Source: Thermotoga sp. SG1
Lineage (GTDB): Bacteria; Thermotogota; Thermotogae; Thermotogales; Thermotogaceae
Direction: 5' to 3'
Assembly: GCF_002865985.1 (NCBI RefSeq)
Contig: NZ_LNDD01000003.1
Location: forward strand, 1-64,000
Length of the DNA stretch: 64,000 bases
Position 1 is the first letter of the stretch; every line of letters starts with the position of its first letter. Shown here one piece after another: positions 6,234-19,805 of this stretch. A program made the position numbers and the translations under genes. The notes beneath the pieces were generated by a model, which saw only the letters and a program-made list of their open reading frames with translations, made no database searches and had not been told where the DNA came from.

Positions 6234-7617
6234 ATGAAACGGTTCGTGTTCGTCTTTGTTGCACTTCTTGTTCTTCAAATTCTTGTGATGGGTTTTGGTC
6301 TCAAGGAGATCAAACCGGGGGAATATTACAACCTTTCCGACTATGAACGTCTGACAGGGAAGAGGATCACGAAGTTCAACGAGGCTCCCATGTTGAAAGA
6401 GATGGTCGAGAAGGGATTGTTACCACCTGTTGAAGAAAGACTTCCGAAAAACCCCCTTGTTGTGACTCCCGTAAAAGAGATCGGACAGTACGGTGGCACA
6501 TGGAGGAGAGCCTGGTACGGTTTTTCTGACAAATGGGGACCAAACAAGATCTGCTTTGAGTATCCAATATTCAGAAGTAATGCATGGAAGTGAACTTGTG
6601 CCGAATGTCTTTGAAAGTATGATAGTGTCACCAGATGGAAGGTCCTTTACTTTCAAAATTAGAGAAGGGTTGAAGTGGTCTGATGGAGTTCCTGTCACAA
6701 CAGAAGATGTCAGATTCTGGTACGAAGACATACTTTTGAACGAGGAAATAACACCATCTATATCTGCCGATTTGAGATCTGGGGGAGAGGTTTTCAAACT
6801 GGAGATAGTGGACGACTATACTTTCAGAATGATCTTCAAAGAACCAAATATGGTACTGCCCTGGAGGATAACTAAATCCTGGGTGGCCGGAACGAGTTTC
6901 GTCGTTCCTTCTCACTATATCAAGCAGTTTCATCCAAAGTATGTAGGAAAAGAAAAGGCCCAGCAGATAGCAAAAGAAAACGGTTTTGATAACTGGTGGC
7001 AGTTTGTTCAGGCAAGATGTCTGAACAGTGATTCTTGGTTGAGGAACCCTGATCTTCCGGTTCTTTTCCCATGGAAGCTGTCCAGAAGAACCACAGACAC
7101 TATGCTAGTTCTTGAGAGAAATCCGTACTACTTCAAAATCGATCCAGAAGGTAATCAGCTCCCCTACATCGATGAAATAGTTCACTACCTCGTTCAGAAC
7201 TCTCAAATGCTTGTCTTCAAAGCGATAACCGGAGAGGTAGATATGCAGGGCAGGAATCTATCTGTAGCGGATCTTCAACTGTTGCTAGCTAATCAGGAAA
7301 AAGGAGGATACAGAGTCATTTTCGAAAAACAAGGTATAGGAAGTGATGTCACTCTCTGGTTCAACCAGAATTACGAAGAGGATGAAATACTTGCGTCTAT
7401 TCTCAGGGACGTGCGATTCAGGCAGGCTATTTCTCTTGCGATCAACAGGGAAGAAATATGGCAGCTTGTGTACCACGGACTTGGAGAACCGCGTCAGGCA
7501 TCTCTAATCAAAGGAGTGAAATACTACGATCCTGAATGGGAAAAAGCATTCGCAGAGTACGACCCTGAAAGAGCCAATAAACTCCTCGATGAATTAGAGA
7601 AAAAATTAGAAATATGA
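6234..7617 (+). pseudogene. Family 5 ABC substrate-binding protein, frameshifted and truncated
   Basis: Remnant of an oligopeptide/oligosaccharide-type binding protein. From the ATG at 6234 (ribosome site GGGAGG) a signal peptide and the conserved GQYGGTWRRAWYG entry are read, then a stop at 6591-6593. The family sequence resumes in the next frame as GSELVPNVFES and FTFKIREGLKWSDGVPVTTE, and runs to a stop at 7615-7617. The shift maps near 6577-6585 (about one base gained or two lost). The family is usually near 600 residues; here about 460 remain and the C-terminal lobe is missing. No dedicated permeases adjoin. Both lesions argue for true decay over a read error, though the shift alone could be an error. 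Confidence 0.85.
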
Positions 7618-7624
7618 ATTATGG

Positions 7625-7650
7625 TAAACTATACCTGAAACATCAAACAT
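7625..7650 (+). promoter_or_regulatory. Promoter -10 and operator of the sugar-acid operon
   Basis: An extended -10 box, TGG-TAAACT (7625-7630), is followed at once by ATACCTGAAACATCAAACAT (7631-7650), 17 of 20 identical to the pelA operator. No good -35 box is seen. The geometry (operator abutting the -10 box) matches the transporter promoter at 4884. Confidence 0.6.
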
Positions 7651-7668
7651 CTTAGGGGAGTGATGAAT

Positions 7669-8766
7669 TTGAAGGCACACGCCATGGTGCTGGAACGTTT
7701 CAACCATCCCCTTGTTTACAGAGAATTCGAGATAACTGAGATTCCACCTGGATCTGTCTTCGTTGAAATCCTCTCTGCCGGTGTATGTGGCTCGGATGTT
7801 CACATGTTCCACGGAGAAGATCCCAGAATTCCCCTTCCTATCATACTGGGACACGAAGGTGCAGGAAGAGTTGTTGAGGTGAACGGTGAAAAGAAAGACC
7901 TCAACGGAGAGTCGATAAAACCTGGTGATCTGATCGTATGGAACAGAGGAATCACCTGTGGAGAGTGTTTCTGGTGTAAAGTGTCAAAAGAGCCCTACCT
8001 GTGTCCAAACAGGAAGGTTTACGGAATAAACATGGGAAGCTCTGAGTATCCTCACCTCAGAGGGTGTTACAGCTCTCACATAGTACTCGATCCAAAGACG
8101 GATATTTTGAAGGTATCAGAAAAAGATGACCTCGATGTTTTAGCTATGGCTATGTGTTCTGGTGCAACAGCGTACCATGCTTTCGATGAATATCCAGAAA
8201 ACTTTGCTGGGAAGACAGTGGTGATACAGGGTGCAGGACCTCTAGGATTGTTCGCCGTTGTCATAGCACGATCTTTTGGGGCAGAGAAAGTGGTGGTGAT
8301 CGCCGGATCGCCGAACAGATTGAGAATTGCAGAAGAGATCGGAGCAGACATCACGCTGAACAGAAGAGAAACAACTGTTGAAGAGAGAAGAAAAATCGTC
8401 ATGGACATCACACATGGAAGAGGAGCAGATTTTGTTCTGGAGGCAACAGGAGACAGCAGAGCCCTTTTGGAAGGAGCGGAACTTTTGAGAAGAGGGGGAT
8501 ACTACGCCGTGGCAGGTGTTGCCGTTCCGCAGGATCCTGTGCCACTGAAGGTTTACGAATGGCTTGTTTTAAAAAATGCAACGTTCAAGGGTGTGTGGGT
8601 GAGTGACACATCTCACTTTATGAAGACAGTATCGATCGCTTCCAGAAACTACAACCTTCTTTCTAAGCTCATCACTCACAAACTTCCTCTGAAAGAGGCA
8701 AACAGAGCATTGGAACTCATGGAATCGAGGGAAGCATTGAAGGTAATACTCTATCCGGAGGGATGA
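7669..8766 (+). CDS. Zinc-dependent medium-chain alcohol/polyol dehydrogenase
   Basis: NAD(P)-dependent oxidoreductase of 365 residues. The catalytic-zinc Cys lies in VCGSDVHMF and the GHEGAGRV helix follows. A structural-zinc lobe has clustered cysteines (TCGECFWCKVSKEPYLC), and the Rossmann motif is GAGPLGLFAVVIA. I choose the TTG at 7669 because GGGGAG (7655-7660) is 8 bases from it but only 2 from the ATG at 7663. It is the first gene of the operon and overlaps the next by ATGA if that gene's first ATG is used. It may interconvert a sugar acid and a keto-sugar acid, or an alditol; substrate unknown. Confidence 0.9.
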   Translation: MKAHAMVLERFNHPLVYREFEITEIPPGSVFVEILSAGVCGSDVHMFHGEDPRIPLPIILGHEGAGRVVEVNGEKKDLNGESIKPGDLIVWNRGITCGECFWCKVSKEPYLCPNRKVYGINMGSSEYPHLRGCYSSHIVLDPKTDILKVSEKDDLDVLAMAMCSGATAYHAFDEYPENFAGKTVVIQGAGPLGLFAVVIARSFGAEKVVVIAGSPNRLRIAEEIGADITLNRRETTVEERRKIVMDITHGRGADFVLEATGDSRALLEGAELLRRGGYYAVAGVAVPQDPVPLKVYEWLVLKNATFKGVWVSDTSHFMKTVSIASRNYNLLSKLITHKLPLKEANRALELMESREALKVILYPEG

Positions 8767-8768
8767 GA

Positions 8769-10109
8769 ATGCTGGAGAAGGCAAAAAGAGTTGAAGAAGA
8801 AATTTTGAATCACGTGAAGGAACCAGAAATTCCAGACCGAGTGGTTGAAATCACCGAGTTTGGAGCAATCGGTGACGGAAAGGCCGACTGTACTGAGAGT
8901 TTCAGAAAAGCCATAGAATTCCTCTCAGAACAGGGTGGAGGAAGACTCGTGGTTCCCCACGGGGTGTTTCTGACAGGGCCCATTCACCTGAAAAGCAACA
9001 TAGAGCTTCATGTTCTGGGGACGATAAAGTTCATCTCGGATCCGAAAAGATATCTTCCCGTTGTTCTGACACGGTTTGAAGGGATAGAATTGTACAACTA
9101 CTCTCCATTGATTTACGCTCTGGACTGTGAAAACGTTGCGATCACCGGAAGTGGTGTGCTGGATGGTTCTGCAGACAACGAACACTGGTGGCCATGGAAG
9201 GGAAAAAAAGAATTTGGCTGGAAGGAAGGAACTCCCAGTCAAAATGAAGATGTGAAAAAGTTGAAAGAGATGGCAGAAAAAGGAACTCCCGTTGAAGAGA
9301 GGATCTTTGGTGAAGGACATTACCTGAGACCGAGTTTCATCCAGTTTTACAGGTGCAGAAACGTTCTGATGAAGGGTGTAAAAGTCGTCAACTCTCCTAT
9401 GTGGTGTGTACATCCGGTTCTTTCTGAGAATGTGATCATCAGAGGCATAGAGATTTCGAGCACGGGCCCGAACAACGATGGGATCGATCCCGAATCCTGT
9501 AGGTACGTGCTCATAGAGAACTGCAGATTCGATACGGGAGACGACTCTGTGGTCATCAAGTCCGGAAGAGATGCGGATGGAAGGCGTATAAACGTCCCAT
9601 CAGAGTATATCCTTGTTCGAAACAACATCGTACTGAGTCAGGCAAGTCATGGAGGTCTGGTCATAGGAAGCGAGATGTCCGGTGGAGTGAAAAACGTGGT
9701 GGCAAGAAACAACGTTTACATGAACGTGGAAAGAGCACTCAGATTGAAAACAAACTCCAGACGTGGTGGATACATGGAAAACATCTTTTTTGTTGATAAC
9801 GTGGTGATAGACGTTTCAGAGGAAGTGATCAGGATAAACCTCAGGTACGACAACGAAGAGGGTGAGTATCCCCCTGTTGTCAGGAACGTTTTTGTGAAGA
9901 ATTTAAAAGCGACCGGTGGAAAGTACGCGATTCGTGTGGAAGGACTGGAGAACGACTTTGTAAAAGACGTTATGATATCTGATACTATAATAGAGGGAGC
10001 AAAGATTTCTGTTCTTCTGGAATTCGGGCAGATAGGCATGGAAAACGTAACCATAAACGGATCACGGTTCGAAAAACTCTATCTGGAAGGAAAGGCACTG
10101 TTGAAATGA
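8769..10109 (+). CDS. pelB: Exo-poly-alpha-D-galacturonosidase, glycoside hydrolase family 28
   Basis: Releases galacturonate from oligogalacturonides, probably in the cytoplasm since no signal peptide is present. GH28 catalytic blocks are clear: NNDGIDPES, DTGDDSVVIKSG, SHGGLVIGSE and the RLKTN substrate-binding motif, on a beta-helix. The ATG at 8769 (446 residues) is preferred over 8763 because GGAGG (8757-8761) is one base from 8763 and seven from 8769. Very similar to the characterised T. maritima exo-enzyme as I recall it. It turns imported oligomers into monomer for the downstream uronate genes. Confidence 0.95.
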   Translation: MLEKAKRVEEEILNHVKEPEIPDRVVEITEFGAIGDGKADCTESFRKAIEFLSEQGGGRLVVPHGVFLTGPIHLKSNIELHVLGTIKFISDPKRYLPVVLTRFEGIELYNYSPLIYALDCENVAITGSGVLDGSADNEHWWPWKGKKEFGWKEGTPSQNEDVKKLKEMAEKGTPVEERIFGEGHYLRPSFIQFYRCRNVLMKGVKVVNSPMWCVHPVLSENVIIRGIEISSTGPNNDGIDPESCRYVLIENCRFDTGDDSVVIKSGRDADGRRINVPSEYILVRNNIVLSQASHGGLVIGSEMSGGVKNVVARNNVYMNVERALRLKTNSRRGGYMENIFFVDNVVIDVSEEVIRINLRYDNEEGEYPPVVRNVFVKNLKATGGKYAIRVEGLENDFVKDVMISDTIIEGAKISVLLEFGQIGMENVTINGSRFEKLYLEGKALLK

Positions 10110-15685: not shown

Positions 15686-17112
15686 TAGCGGCCATAGACA
15701 TTGGAACAGAGAGCGCTCGTTTGATGTTCAAAACTGACGGTGAGTGGAAAGTCCTGAAAAAGTCCTACAGGATCTTTTTCCCATCTCTCGAAGCGGTGGA
15801 GCAGGATCCAGAGGAAATCTTGGCAGCCGTCTATGACCTTTTGAAGCAGATTCCAAAAAAGGAAGATGTTCTGTACGTTGGAATGAGTTCTGTGTTTCAC
15901 AGTATAGTGGGTCTCGATGAAGATTTCAACCCGGTAACGCCCCTTCTCAACTGGGCGGATAGGAGGTCCTATCACGAAAAGGAAGAACTCGAAAAGAAAT
16001 ACGGGACCAGGTTCTTCTACGAAAGAACGGCCTGCCCGCTTCATCCGATGTACTGGCCTTCGAAGATCCTATGGATGAAGAAGAACTCAGATTCAAAGAA
16101 GTTCTGTTCCATAAAGGCCTTCATAGTCAACAAACTGACGGGAGAGTTCGTGGAGGAGCTTTCCCTTGCTTCCGGAACTGGAATGATAAACATCCACTCC
16201 CTCGAGTGGGACGACGAAATCCTTGAGATCGTGGGGGTGAAGAAAGAAAACCTGCCAGAACTCATGTCACCCTACACTCAGTTGAAAGCGAAAGAAGATG
16301 TAGCGAAAGAACTCGGTTTCAAGGAAGTCTATCTGGTCCTCGGTGGAGGAGACGGAGTAATGACGAACGTTGGACTGAACGCTATGAGTCCAGATTCTGC
16401 CACCGTAACGATCGGAACAAGCGGTGCGTTTCGTGTGGTTCTGAACAGATCCGTGATAGATCGGGAAGGCATCTCCACGTGGTGCTATCTGATCGATGAG
16501 AAAAACTATGTTCTTGGTGGTGCGATAAACAACGGCGGAATCGTGCTGATGTGGCTGAAAGATGTTATGAAGTTCGACAGTTACGACGAGATCATAGAGG
16601 AGGCAAAGAAGTCTTCGATCGGGGCAAGCGGTCTTGTTTTCCTTCCCTTCCTCAACGGTGAAAGGGCACCACACTGGAGAGAAAGGTACAGGGGTGTTCT
16701 GGTGGGACTTGCTTCATCTCACAGAAGAAGCGATATCGCCAGGGCGGCGCTTGAGGGGATCTGTTTCAGAATAAAAGACATATACAACGCGGTGAAGAGG
16801 GTGGGGAATGTGGATCCTGTTCGGATCGTTGCAACGGGAGGCTTCACCAGTTCGCCTTACTGGGTTCAGCTCCTTGCGGATGTTCTGGGAAAGGATATCG
16901 CGGTCACAAACGTGGAGAATCCTTCCGCCTTCGGTGCCTATGTAATGGCGCTGAAGTCTCTTGGAGAGAGCGTAGAAGAATTCCTTGAAAAGGAAGTACG
17001 TGTGGAGCAGGTTTTTCGCTGTGATCCCGAAAGAAACGAAAAATACGAAAAACTCTACGATGATTACAGACTTCTCTACGAAAAACTTGTGGACTATTTC
17101 TACAGGGAGTAA
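15682..17112 (+). CDS. gntK: FGGY-family gluconate kinase
   Basis: Phosphorylates gluconate with ATP to 6-phosphogluconate, the substrate of Gnd in the same operon. It has 476 residues in the two-domain FGGY fold: phosphate loop IDIGTESARL, second-domain TIGTSGAF, LNGERAPHW and VATGGFTSSPYWVQLLADV. The ATG at 15682 lies within ATGA with the preceding stop and has a GGAGAGGAG ribosome site. It is the last gene of the operon; its end overlaps the convergent aspartase gene by 13 bases, with no terminator between. Other sugar-acid or sugar substrates cannot be excluded by sequence. Confidence 0.9.
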   Translation: MIAAIDIGTESARLMFKTDGEWKVLKKSYRIFFPSLEAVEQDPEEILAAVYDLLKQIPKKEDVLYVGMSSVFHSIVGLDEDFNPVTPLLNWADRRSYHEKEELEKKYGTRFFYERTACPLHPMYWPSKILWMKKNSDSKKFCSIKAFIVNKLTGEFVEELSLASGTGMINIHSLEWDDEILEIVGVKKENLPELMSPYTQLKAKEDVAKELGFKEVYLVLGGGDGVMTNVGLNAMSPDSATVTIGTSGAFRVVLNRSVIDREGISTWCYLIDEKNYVLGGAINNGGIVLMWLKDVMKFDSYDEIIEEAKKSSIGASGLVFLPFLNGERAPHWRERYRGVLVGLASSHRRSDIARAALEGICFRIKDIYNAVKRVGNVDPVRIVATGGFTSSPYWVQLLADVLGKDIAVTNVENPSAFGAYVMALKSLGESVEEFLEKEVRVEQVFRCDPERNEKYEKLYDDYRLLYEKLVDYFYRE

Positions 17113-18476
17113 CCAAGACCGGTCATCTTCTTCAGATCCAGTTTCTTCGCTATCTCATCGATCGGAACGTTCTTTTCCCGAGAGAGAATTTCCAGGGTCT
17201 TTCCGATATCCCAGTTTGCCCTCTTCACCGCTTCTGAGACGGCCTCGTAACCGAACATCTTTATCAGCGGTGTGAGGTTCGACACAGAACGTGAAAGGTT
17301 TTCCTCACAGCGCTTTTCGTTTGCCTTTATGTTCACCATGTATTCTGCTAGGGATCGACAGGCGTTTGCGAGAAGTGTGAGGGACTTGAGTGTGAGATGG
17401 ACTATGAGGGGGGCGAACTGGTTGAGTTCGAGGTTTCCGAGGGCACATGCGTGGTTCAGTACCGTGTCGTGACCGAAGACCATGTGGCAGAGTTGCATCA
17501 CATACTCGGGAACAACCGGATTCACCTTTCCTGGCATAATGGAACTTCCCGCCTGAACAGCCGGCAGAATGAGTTCACCTATCGCCGTGTTTGGCCCACT
17601 TCCAAGGAGCCTGATATCGTTTGAGATCTTGTAGAGATTCACCGCAAGAGATTTTAGAAGGCCGTGAATCTCCGCAAAGACATCCCAGTTTTGGGTTGCG
17701 TCTATGAGGTTTTCCGCCTTGGCGATCTTCACCTTCGTTACTTCTCTCACTTTTTCCACGATCTTCAGGATGTAATCTTTCGGTGCCCCAACTCCCGTTC
17801 CGATGGCCGTCCCCCCGATGTTCACGCTTCTTATTCTCTCTTCGACTTTGTGGAGCCTCCATCTGTCCCTTGCGAGGGCATCGGCGAAGGCGCCGAACTC
17901 CTGCCCAAGCATGATCGGTGGGCCATCCATGAGCTGGGTTCTTCCCGGCTTTCTGATGGAGTAGAACTCCTTCTCTTTCTCCTGGATCTTCTCCTGAAGA
18001 TTTATCACCGTTTCTATGAGTTTTCTCAGTTTCACGATGGTGGCGATCTTCGCACTCGTTGGAAAGGTGTCGTTCGTTGACTGGTGCAGGTTCACGTGAT
18101 CTATAGGATCGACGAGGTACTCTCCTTTCTTTCCACCGAGTATCTCCGTTGCCCTGTTTGCTATCACTTCGTTTATGTTCATGTTTATCGACGTTCCAGC
18201 CCCACCCGAGAGGGGATCCACCAGAACGTGTTCTTTCAACGTTTTCCACTCATCGCACGCCTTTACAATGGCGTTTCCTATTCGTTCGTCCAGGTAGCCG
18301 AGTTCGGTGTTGAGAAGAGCGCAGGCTTTTTTCACCATGAAGTACGCCCAGATGAACGTCTCGTCGAGCCTTTCGCCAGTTGGCGGAAAGTTCATCAAGG
18401 CTCGCCTGGTGTGTATTCCATAGTAAGCGTCGTCTTCTATCTCCAGTTCTCCGAGATAGTCTCTTTCTTTTCTCAA
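17100..18476 (-). CDS. aspA: Aspartate ammonia-lyase-like enzyme (fumarase/aspartase superfamily)
   Basis: Probably releases ammonia from aspartate to give fumarate; fumarase activity is the alternative. The 458-residue protein has the lyase signature [11 protein letters not shown], the [14 protein letters not shown] and [11 protein letters not shown] substrate blocks and [14 protein letters not shown]. The TTG start at 18476-18474 overlaps the hydF stop (TTGA), with GGAGG 10 bases upstream inside hydF, so translation is coupled. Such coupling to an FeFe-hydrogenase maturase suggests a role in supplying nitrogen for cofactor assembly (inference). Confidence 0.88.
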
Positions 18477-19687
18477 ACTCTCACTTCCTCCCTGAAAGGA
18501 CGGATCGCCCGCTCGAGGACTCCGTGAAGGTAAGAGATGGTCACACCGTAGTTCGTCATCGGTATACCGAGCCTTTTTGCCATCCTCACCCTTCTCATCA
18601 TCGCTGAGCGGTTCAGGACACATCCACCACAGTGGATGATGAGTTTTGCGTTTTCTATTTCTTCAAGATCAGGAAAGTCTTTTCCGGCTATGACCTTGAA
18701 GTTGAGCTGCGCTCCCGTGTGGTTCACAAGCCATCTTGGAATCTTCACCCTTCCGATGTCTTCGGTAAGAGGTCTGTGGGTGCAACCTTCCATGATCACA
18801 ACCGTGTCGCCATCTCTCAACTCTTCTATCTTCTTCACACTCTCAACGAAGTAAGAAAGATCGCCACGGTAGCGCGATTCCACGATCGAGAAGGTGGTGA
18901 GTTCCACATCATCCGGGATATCGGAGACGACCTTCATCACGGCTTGAGAATCTGTGATCACAAGTTTCGGTTTCATTCCGATGTTCTCCATCACATACCT
19001 GAGTTCTCTTTCCTTTACAACAAGGGCAATGGCTTCCCTGTCCAGAGTCTCTCTTATTGCGTGTACTTGTGGCATGATGAGCCTTCCCTTGGGTGCTCCA
19101 AGGTCTATGGGAACAACAAGAATCACGAGGTCACCGCCGTCTATCAGATCGCCGAGATATGGAATCTCCTCGTCGTCTGGAAGGATCTCAGAGAGGACTT
19201 TTCCTATACCTTCAAAGCCTTCCTTTCGAAGTGCCGAGACAAGAATCACCCTTGCTTTGTATCGATCCTCGTACAGTCTTTTCAGTTCCATGGCTTTTTC
19301 TTTCAGAACATCGATTTTGTTTATCACGACCACGAAAGGGATTTCCATCTCTTTGAAGAGATTTGCAACGTCGTCTTCATATGGAGTTGGTGCGCTGTCT
19401 GTCACAAGAATCCCACAGTCTGCCCTGTAAAACACCCTTCTTGCTCTTTCTACCCTGAGCCTTCCAAGTTCACCCACGTCGTCGAGCCCGGGGGTGTCCA
19501 CAAGAGTGACGGGACCTATGGGATGAAGTTCCATGGATTTGTAAACGGGATCGGTCGTCGTTCCCGCGTAGTTGCTCACGATGGACACATTCTGGCCGAC
19601 GAGGGCGTTCATGAAAGAGGATTTCCCGACGTTTCTTCTTCCAGCAACAACGATGTATCTTCTAAAGCCGGCATCTGGTAGTCTCAC
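18473..19687 (-). CDS. hydF: [FeFe]-hydrogenase maturation GTPase and scaffold
   Basis: Scaffold on which the binuclear iron subcluster is built with HydE and HydG before transfer to hydrogenase. All domains are present in 404 residues: GTPase motifs [21 protein letters not shown] and NKID; a dimerisation domain; and the [4Fe-4S] site C302-x-H304 with C353 and C356 (CTHRP and HCGGC). The GTG start follows GAGGTGAT. It is preceded by a 118-base leader with competing hairpins and is coupled to the aspartase gene downstream. HydE, HydG and the hydrogenase are not in the window. Confidence 0.97.
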
Positions 19688-19699
19688 ACTATCACCTCA

Positions 19700-19774
19700 T
19701 ATAAAGAAAAATCCCCTTCGCGCGACCGAAGGGGTATTCCCCCTCGGTGTCGGATACCCTCCACCTCAGGTGGA
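19700..19774 (-). promoter_or_regulatory. hydF leader with competing hairpins: candidate attenuator or riboswitch
   Basis: On the minus strand three structures occur in order. The first is a hairpin TCCACC/GGTGGA (19774-19760). The second is a 10-pair hairpin ACCGAGGGGG/CCCCTTCGGT with loop AATA (19748-19725), which competes with a GGGTATCC/GGAATACCC pairing. The third is an intrinsic terminator CCCCTTCG/CGAAGGGG followed by ATTTTTCTTT (19734-19700). The 19734-19727 strand is shared by the second and third, so forming one excludes the other. The hydF ribosome site follows. I could not match it to a known riboswitch class. Confidence 0.7.
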
Positions 19775-19805
19775 ATGGGACTTTTCAAGTTAATTTTATC
19801 ACAAA

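Follow-up and report, generated by a model that had tools for sequence, protein, structure and literature searches.

A covarying dyad-symmetric leader RNA before hydF and other hydrogenase maturation genes, with TM1266 as its proposed partner

The leader of hydF in Thermotoga sp. SG1 carries a hairpin of about 39 nucleotides built of two CUGA/RAGG modules in dyad symmetry, and the same hairpin with covarying helices is found before hydE, hydF, hydG, hydA, TM1266 and transporter genes in Thermotogota and, mainly ahead of TM1266, hydG and hydE, on the Bacillota side. That this is a real conserved RNA class can hardly be doubted. The more specific proposal, a cis-regulatory RNA class that controls the [FeFe]-hydrogenase maturation genes and shuts them off in feedback when TM1266 binds, is put forward with belief and doubt in equal measure.

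The element is apparently undescribed. No description of it was found in a full-text literature search, and its absence from print is not proved, since most subscription journals and all preprints lay outside that search. Searched with the covariance models of Rfam 15, the window (the 64,000 nucleotides of contig NZ_LNDD01000003.1 that were analysed) had no hit over the element; ten loci gave none with E as high as 5, and in a further twelve loci, drawn from both phyla, no riboswitch or attenuator family covered the element at E values up to 3. Of functional RNAs, PMC3636130 gives merely a count, 10 non-coding RNAs beside tRNA, rRNA and CRISPR as predicted with Rfam 10, and the words 'hydrogenase' and 'TM1266' are absent from its main text. 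The tungsten-cofactor riboswitches before hydrogenase genes in PMC9481103 are a different RNA; PMC2864571 makes no mention of hydG, hydF or Thermotog, and in PMC3543383 HydF and riboswitches are mentioned separately.

The hydF leader and its switch

In the window, purK, purE, hydF and aspA are all encoded on the minus strand, with a gap of 118 bases between the stop codon of purE (19806) and the GTG start codon of hydF (19687). Of 200 dinucleotide shuffles, 199 fold less well than the whole leader (Table 1; z -2.98). From the promoter-like TGATAAAAT, retained by eye in the seven Thermotoga hydF leaders, a transcript start would be expected at about 19786, a position for which no start-site data were seen; a promoter scan gave little result. 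As a side observation, an aspartate ammonia-lyase gene directly follows hydF (window 17100-19687), as in hyd clusters of Bacillota (L077, L083, L133); in Pelobacter carbinolicus, aspA is located between hydG and hydF (PMC3543383).

Table 1. Parts of the leader and the controlled gene, in window coordinates
Feature	Position	Strand	Basis or remark
Extended -10 promoter-like TGATAAAAT, end of purE	19793..19801	-	Read from sequence
Conserved dyad-symmetric hairpin, ~39 nt	19737..19775	-	Two CUGA/RAGG modules around covarying 4-bp helix
P1 5' strand UUCC(A)CCU	19768..19775	-	Alignment and folding
Outer module, GA of CUGA	19766..19767	-	CUGA in 59/65 rows
P2 5' strand GGUG	19762..19765	-	4/4 P2 pairs change on both sides across alignment A4
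Inner module GAGG = P3 5' strand	19758..19761	-	RAGG in 62/65 rows
Apical loop GUAU	19754..19757	-	Folding
Inner module CCGA including P3 3' strand CC	19750..19753	-	CUGA in 61/65 rows, CCGA in 2
P2 3' strand CACC	19746..19749	-	Covariation
Outer module GA and P1 3' strand GGGGGAA	19737..19745	-	Overlaps antiterminator 5' arm
Antiterminator 5' arm ACCGAGGGGG	19739..19748	-	Folding, arm-pairing script
Antiterminator 3' arm CCCCUUCGGU	19725..19734	-	Folding, arm-pairing script
Intrinsic terminator hairpin CCCCUUCG-GUCGCG-CGAAGGGG	19713..19734	-	Terminator scan
Terminator U-rich tail AUUUUUCUUU	19703..19712	-	Terminator scan
hydF ribosome site GAGGUGAU	19691..19698	-	By eye
hydF (HydF GTPase, TIGR03918), controlled gene	18473..19687	-	534 bits, cut-off 325.55

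The terminator with its T-run and the 10-pair hairpin ACCGAGGGGG/CCCCUUCGGU, whose 3' arm is also the 5' arm of the terminator, are present in the gap as the earlier note had read them. A terminator scan alone stays at chance level, with 11 terminator-like sites in 7 kb versus 7.7 +/- 2.9 in shuffles. The third pairing of that note, GGGTATCC/GGAATACCC, can be formed in the window (-9.9 kcal/mol at 37 C) but does not stand as a conserved competitor, as it is not kept: of its six outer positions, all 6 are paired in the hydF leaders of G000 and G010, 5 in those of G006 and G004, 4 in that of G009 and 3 in those of G005, G007 and G008. The conserved competitor is the hairpin 19775-19737, which had not been listed; the site given in the note, 19700-19774, has to be extended to 19775 and, with the likely promoter, to 19801. 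Folding of the single sequence also yields an outer GAAAAGUCCC/GGGGAUUUUUC stem, which was discarded, as by eye, without formal test, it is not seen in all relatives.

The 3' strand of P1 (19743-19737) overlaps the 5' arm of the antiterminator (19748-19739), the 3' arm of which (19734-19725) in turn contains the 5' arm of the terminator (19734-19727); therefore the dyad hairpin and the terminator are compatible with each other and the antiterminator excludes both, giving a three-stage switch of hairpin, antiterminator and terminator. By script, a terminator is located within 190 nt in 61 of 69 Thermotogota elements, and in 54 of these 61 it is accompanied by an antiterminator with 9 or more contiguous pairs, a length reached by 7.3% of shuffled strands; the terminator script missed some loci and made spurious calls in some Mesoaciditogales coding regions. 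The arrangement required of an attenuator, with a terminator and an antiterminator that exclude each other in the stretch from promoter to gene, is therefore present in these 54.

With respect to polarity, the antiterminator fold of the window's own leader is favoured at 80 C (-11.4 versus -6.9 kcal/mol for hairpin plus terminator), and of the transcript lengths that were folded, only that of 50 nt has the dyad hairpin as its minimum, with the antiterminator in its place by 60 nt. At 37 C, hairpin plus terminator (-36.0) and the global minimum (-37.5) are about equal, so that the polarity rests on the calculation for the growth temperature and on the logic of the expression platforms; the energies are nearest-neighbour values extrapolated in temperature and constitute no proof. 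As the antiterminator is favoured at 80 C and the hairpin is the minimum early, a factor catching the hairpin early would switch the gene off. Free RNA would be expected to refold into the antiterminator, upon which hydF would be transcribed; held by a factor during transcription, the dyad hairpin would preclude the antiterminator and permit the terminator to form.

A second platform is found in Mesoaciditogales (L216, L218, L219, L228, L231), where the 3' strand of P1, GAGGAGG, is itself the ribosome site a few bases before the ATG; the hairpin would therefore block translation. Both platforms say that the gene is off when the hairpin is formed, and that the bound state is the off state is considered probable, in the absence of binding or termination data. 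At four Mesoaciditogales loci before hydG (L223, L224, L230, L233), the 3' strand of P1 is followed, by eye, by the ATG of a short frame and a terminator-like hairpin, possibly a leader-peptide variant. An element with its ribosome site in P1 also lies directly before hydF in a record named Thermotoga sp. SulCav (L073:77-119); it resembles the Mesoaciditogales copies and differs from those of Thermotoga, and the genus name of the record may be wrong.

Covariation and distribution of the element

The conserved core is arranged in the order P1, a 5' CUGA facing RAGG, the 4-bp P2, RAGG facing CUGA, P3 and a variable loop, the second module being the first turned by 180 degrees. Letter conservation is restricted to the two modules, which are nearly invariant across 65 rows (Table 1; the outer RAGG in 59), and the helices covary. 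In an alignment of 65 distinct Thermotogota rows, 92.0% of the cells are paired and 9 of 14 pairs are doubly changed, with 105 doubly changed cells where shuffles average 40.1 and not one in 500 attains 105, and shifting the pairing partner abolishes the covariation signal. This alignment is biased towards the model, as it was fitted to one holding 7 of the 14 pairs (the P1 pairs lie outside it). The alignment of both phyla, A4, equally of 65 rows (38 of a 69-place Thermotogota set, 6 from the scan with covariance model R2 and 21 from the Bacillota side), gives 87.4% paired cells, 10 of 14 doubly changed pairs and 182 doubly changed cells versus 55.8 in shuffles, a number reached by 0 of 500. 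Its P2 counts are somewhat inflated, since 7 of the 21 Bacillota-side rows (L337, L338, L339, L343, L346, L347, L348) were chosen for a fully paired P2. RNAalifold recovers the identical hairpin unprompted.

With the leader alone as query against 14 genomes of the family, the hydF leaders and a second site of about 78-80% identity were found in all seven genomes of the window's genus, and both copies are present in G004, which belongs to another genus of the family. The second copy in the window's genome directly precedes a TM1266-like gene and hydG and possesses a TATAAT-type promoter of its own (by eye), an antiterminator of 12-14 pairs and a terminator, the 3' arm of which by eye also resembles a ribosome site; at the promoter of these TM1266-hydG leaders, TGGTATAAT or TGATATAAT is read by eye in seven Thermotoga and TGTTATAAT in G004. 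The pattern GAGGTGGAGGN{2,14}GACACC has 24 matches in 17 of 103 Thermotogota genomes (2 matches in the backward control), and covariance model R1, made of 22 copies, finds 71 places in 58 of the 103 at E<=0.05. Without the near-identical hydF leaders of G005 and G008, these places form the 69-place set from which R2 was made, and R2 added six more genomes among 28 rescanned and one new place in a known genome, to a Thermotogota total of 78 places in 64 of 103 genomes.

According to curated families, the next gene is TM1266 at 52 of the 78 places (30-174 nt downstream) and hydF at 13 (7-88 nt downstream). The remaining 13 comprise hydG at eight (G021, G022, G023, G024, G032, G033, G034, G101), hydA at three (G080, G082, G084), hydE in G003 and an SsuA-like ABC transporter gene in G030; hydA of G082, hydE of G003, hydG of G034 and the G030 transporter were checked with NCBIfam, and the others are named by likeness.

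On the Bacillota side, weak and divergent likenesses to the element are found at five hydF loci (L083, L077, L093, L101, L133). Strict R2 on Bacillota genomes gave matches with E<=1 in 9 of 19, one of them below 0.01, and was replaced by a general pattern and then by covariance model R3. Near the TM1266 genes of 299 genomes of the phylum of the L083 genome, the exact architecture occurs with a wholly different P2, CUUA/UAAG. The general pattern with free P2 was run on 398 genomes and gave 149 usable rows among the matches listed (one with N bases was omitted); among these listed matches, all four P2 pairs are formed in 12 of the 17 rows within 1 kb of TM1266 and in 22 of the 132 rows elsewhere, 11 of the 22 being simple repeats, and the backward control of the pattern matches too. 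Eight of the 22 were fetched. One of them lies at a contig end and one in an unrelated place (L349); the other six precede TM1266, hydG or hydF. Cumulatively, the fetched Bacillota-side copies precede TM1266, hydG, hydF or TM1266-hydE.

R3 finds 51 places in 42 of the 299 Bacillota-side genomes (E<=0.02), 38 of them directly before hyd-related genes (TM1266 26, hydG 10, hydE 2). The others precede transporter genes (4), lie at a contig end (1) or inside coding sequence (5; L381, L385, L386, L389, L390) or are unresolved (3; L383, L387, L391). NCBIfam confirmed nine of the hydG and hydE genes linked to R3 places as well as hydG of L347. Upstream of TM1266 in L077, L082, L087, L095, L102, L106, L118 and L127, two tandem hairpins with CU-GA ... 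RA-GG closings and a terminator are seen by eye, likely a divergent, doubled form of the element.

One requirement of a metabolite riboswitch, a conserved domain of aptamer type that covaries and lies ahead of genes related in function, is fulfilled. The conserved pairing in relatives, the lack of which would have spoken against an attenuator or riboswitch-like leader for hydF as suggested in the earlier note, was looked for and found, and this suggestion is now strongly supported, on computational evidence and without transcript-end data; the attribution to hydF alone has given way to a regulon.

TM1266 and competing explanations

TM1266 (TIGR03959, PF21699; solved structure 2nzc) is a stand-alone ACT-like, regulator-like domain, and its family, 'iron-only hydrogenase system putative regulator', was named for the hyd gene neighbourhood. 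In Thermotogota, TM1266 scores over the cut-off in 64 of 64 genomes with the RNA, and three of the 67 genomes with TM1266 (G017, G035, G102) are without the RNA. Among HydF-containing genomes, 63 of the 65 that have TM1266 also have the RNA, and none of the 6 without TM1266 has it (two-sided Fisher 2e-7, without correction for kinship). All 36 Thermotogota genomes in which TM1266 does not reach the cut-off were scanned with R1, and only 12 of them also with the laxer R2 (best E 0.0185). Within genus g34, G065 possesses RNA and TM1266, both of which are missing at the same place in G060, G061 and G062, where hydG-hydE-hydF is present without TM1266 and without leader (G063 and G064 stand outside the comparison); this contrast amounts to one or two events. 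As TM1266 is usually the next gene, RNA and gene could be lost in a single deletion. In G021, where the RNA precedes hydG and hydF, TM1266 is encoded elsewhere, at C1:650107. On the Bacillota side, a TM1266 match is found in 40 of the 42 genomes with RNA, the hits in the other two (G242, G280) being inside coding sequence; of the 153 genomes that match TM1266, only 40 have an R3 match at E<=0.02. The RNA is found only where TM1266 is present, which meets the criterion for the proposed regulon.

Since the element tracks the TM1266 gene, a TM1266-RNA switch is the leading model, and co-occurrence together with dyad symmetry makes a TM1266 homodimer the first choice for the factor, the symmetry of the modules being inferred to fit a homodimer. 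As its own gene usually carries the same leader, the homodimer would shut off the maturation genes in feedback, a step that is inferred with less assurance. Whether TM1266 is the binder of the dyad hairpin is, without binding data, a question on which the scales stand level: no RNA target or mechanism for TM1266 was found in the literature searched, we know of no RNA-binding ACT protein of its kind, and a metabolite ligand would go well with the presence of transporter genes in the regulon.

The main rival is a small-molecule riboswitch, tenable if rather doubtful, in which the dyad hairpin binds a metabolite or metal directly, one per CUGA/RAGG module (for instance ferrous iron, a precursor or product of the H-cluster, or whatever substrate the linked transporters carry), and TM1266 is merely co-regulated. 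The restriction of conserved letters to the modules between covarying helices, the existence of two expression platforms, termination and hiding of the ribosome site, and the ABC or ECF-type transporter genes downstream in a few genomes (L227; L371, L372; L380, L384) would all be in line with a riboswitch, against which it counts that the RNA follows TM1266 rather than HydF, to the point of its absence from the six Thermotogota genomes with HydF but without TM1266. By inference, an irregular hairpin of about 39 nt with neither junction nor pseudoknot is also small for a metabolite aptamer, and the dyad symmetry is better suited to a protein dimer.

That another trans-acting factor uses the dyad hairpin, be it some other protein that binds RNA or factors of RNA polymerase in conjunction with temperature or redox state, is improbable: the element does stand before genes other than TM1266, and TM1266 can be located elsewhere, as in G021, but no gene was seen to track the element as closely, although others were not searched for systematically. 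Hardly anything speaks for an ordinary purK-purE terminator with hairpins that overlap by chance and regulate nothing; the chance-level terminator scan and the position of the hairpin just behind purE would be compatible with it, but the same covarying element occurs before TM1266-hydG, hydE, hydA and transporter genes, and Mesoaciditogales copies overlap a ribosome site instead of a terminator, so that as a complete account it is refuted by covariation and the other gene contexts. The set of pairings in the earlier note, terminator, 10-pair hairpin and GGGTATCC/GGAATACCC, can as an explanation practically be dismissed; all three exist in the window sequence, but GGGTATCC/GGAATACCC, kept at 3 to 6 of 6 positions in six types of hydF leader, is weak and declines to -0.1 kcal/mol at 80 C.

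Retaining TM1266 as the preferred partner, the model can be extended, tentatively and with slightly more doubt than belief, to TM1266 as founder of stand-alone ACT-type RNA-binding regulators: its homodimer would read the CUGA/RAGG dyad in nascent leaders and, gated by an effector with a tie to H-cluster assembly, would switch termination or translation on and off in Thermotogota and Bacillota, both for hydE, hydF, hydG and hydA and for its own gene and the linked transporters.

Linked genes and known regulatory systems

In both phyla an NMT1/SsuA-like ABC transporter, with PF13379/PF09084 in its scanned members, is found in linkage with genes for hydrogenase maturation, at L227:705-2377 (G030), L270 minus strand 6424-8806 (G080), L380 and L384, and behind TM1266 at L344, L345 and L367; in some genomes the RNA element stands directly before it. 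An ECF-type substrate-binding membrane protein of about 165 aa (PF12822, over the cut-off in L371 and below it in L377) accompanies TM1266 and the element, which is directly before the gene in L371 and L372, and the gene adjoins TM1266 in L377 and L267. Behind hydG, a small protein of about 84-105 aa is encoded in many genomes (L223, L226, L263, L270, L333); two members scanned matched no NCBIfam or Pfam family, and in G060-G062 it is absent along with TM1266 and the RNA. A Guanidine-I riboswitch-like match at L366:2868-2966 (+) reaches 50.4 bits, where the gathering score is 63.

To our knowledge, there is no published account of the way in which bacteria adjust the costly radical-SAM machinery for building the H-cluster. 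For this question as well as for TM1266, so far a 'putative regulator' without target, the element offers a concrete molecular handle, an RNA of about 39 nt with two identical modules and a list of controlled genes, hydE, hydF, hydG, hydA and TM1266, and a direct test is feasible with short RNAs and a single protein that is small and thermostable. The substrates of the two uncharacterised transporter types could point to a signal or a precursor in the assembly of the H-cluster.

Among known systems, LicT/SacY (CAT-domain) antiterminators are protein dimers that read the RAT, a pseudo-symmetric hairpin with two internal loops in the mRNA leader; the RAT itself is the antiterminator, so that the bound state is on. 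The element shares with the RAT the pseudo-symmetric leader hairpin and the switching between terminator and antiterminator, but not the criterion that the bound hairpin be the antiterminator, as its dyad hairpin shares bases with the antiterminator and excludes it (bound is proposed to be off); the loop sequences also differ, and no CAT protein is known to be involved. In the pyr attenuators governed by PyrR, an anti-antiterminator, an antiterminator and a terminator follow each other, the regulator gene belongs to its own regulon and the bound state is off. The criterion of this three-stage order is met by the element, and in the proposed model the regulator gene is likewise within its own regulon with bound as off, whereas RNA, protein family and pathway (hyd instead of pyr genes) are different and no nucleotide ligand is implied. 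Like metabolite riboswitches with terminator or ribosome-site platforms, the element combines a conserved aptamer-like domain with a variable platform and a coherent regulon; unlike them, it is without an Rfam family and its aptamer would be very small. With respect to the TM1266 family, the regulon of the element is the very one for which the family was named.
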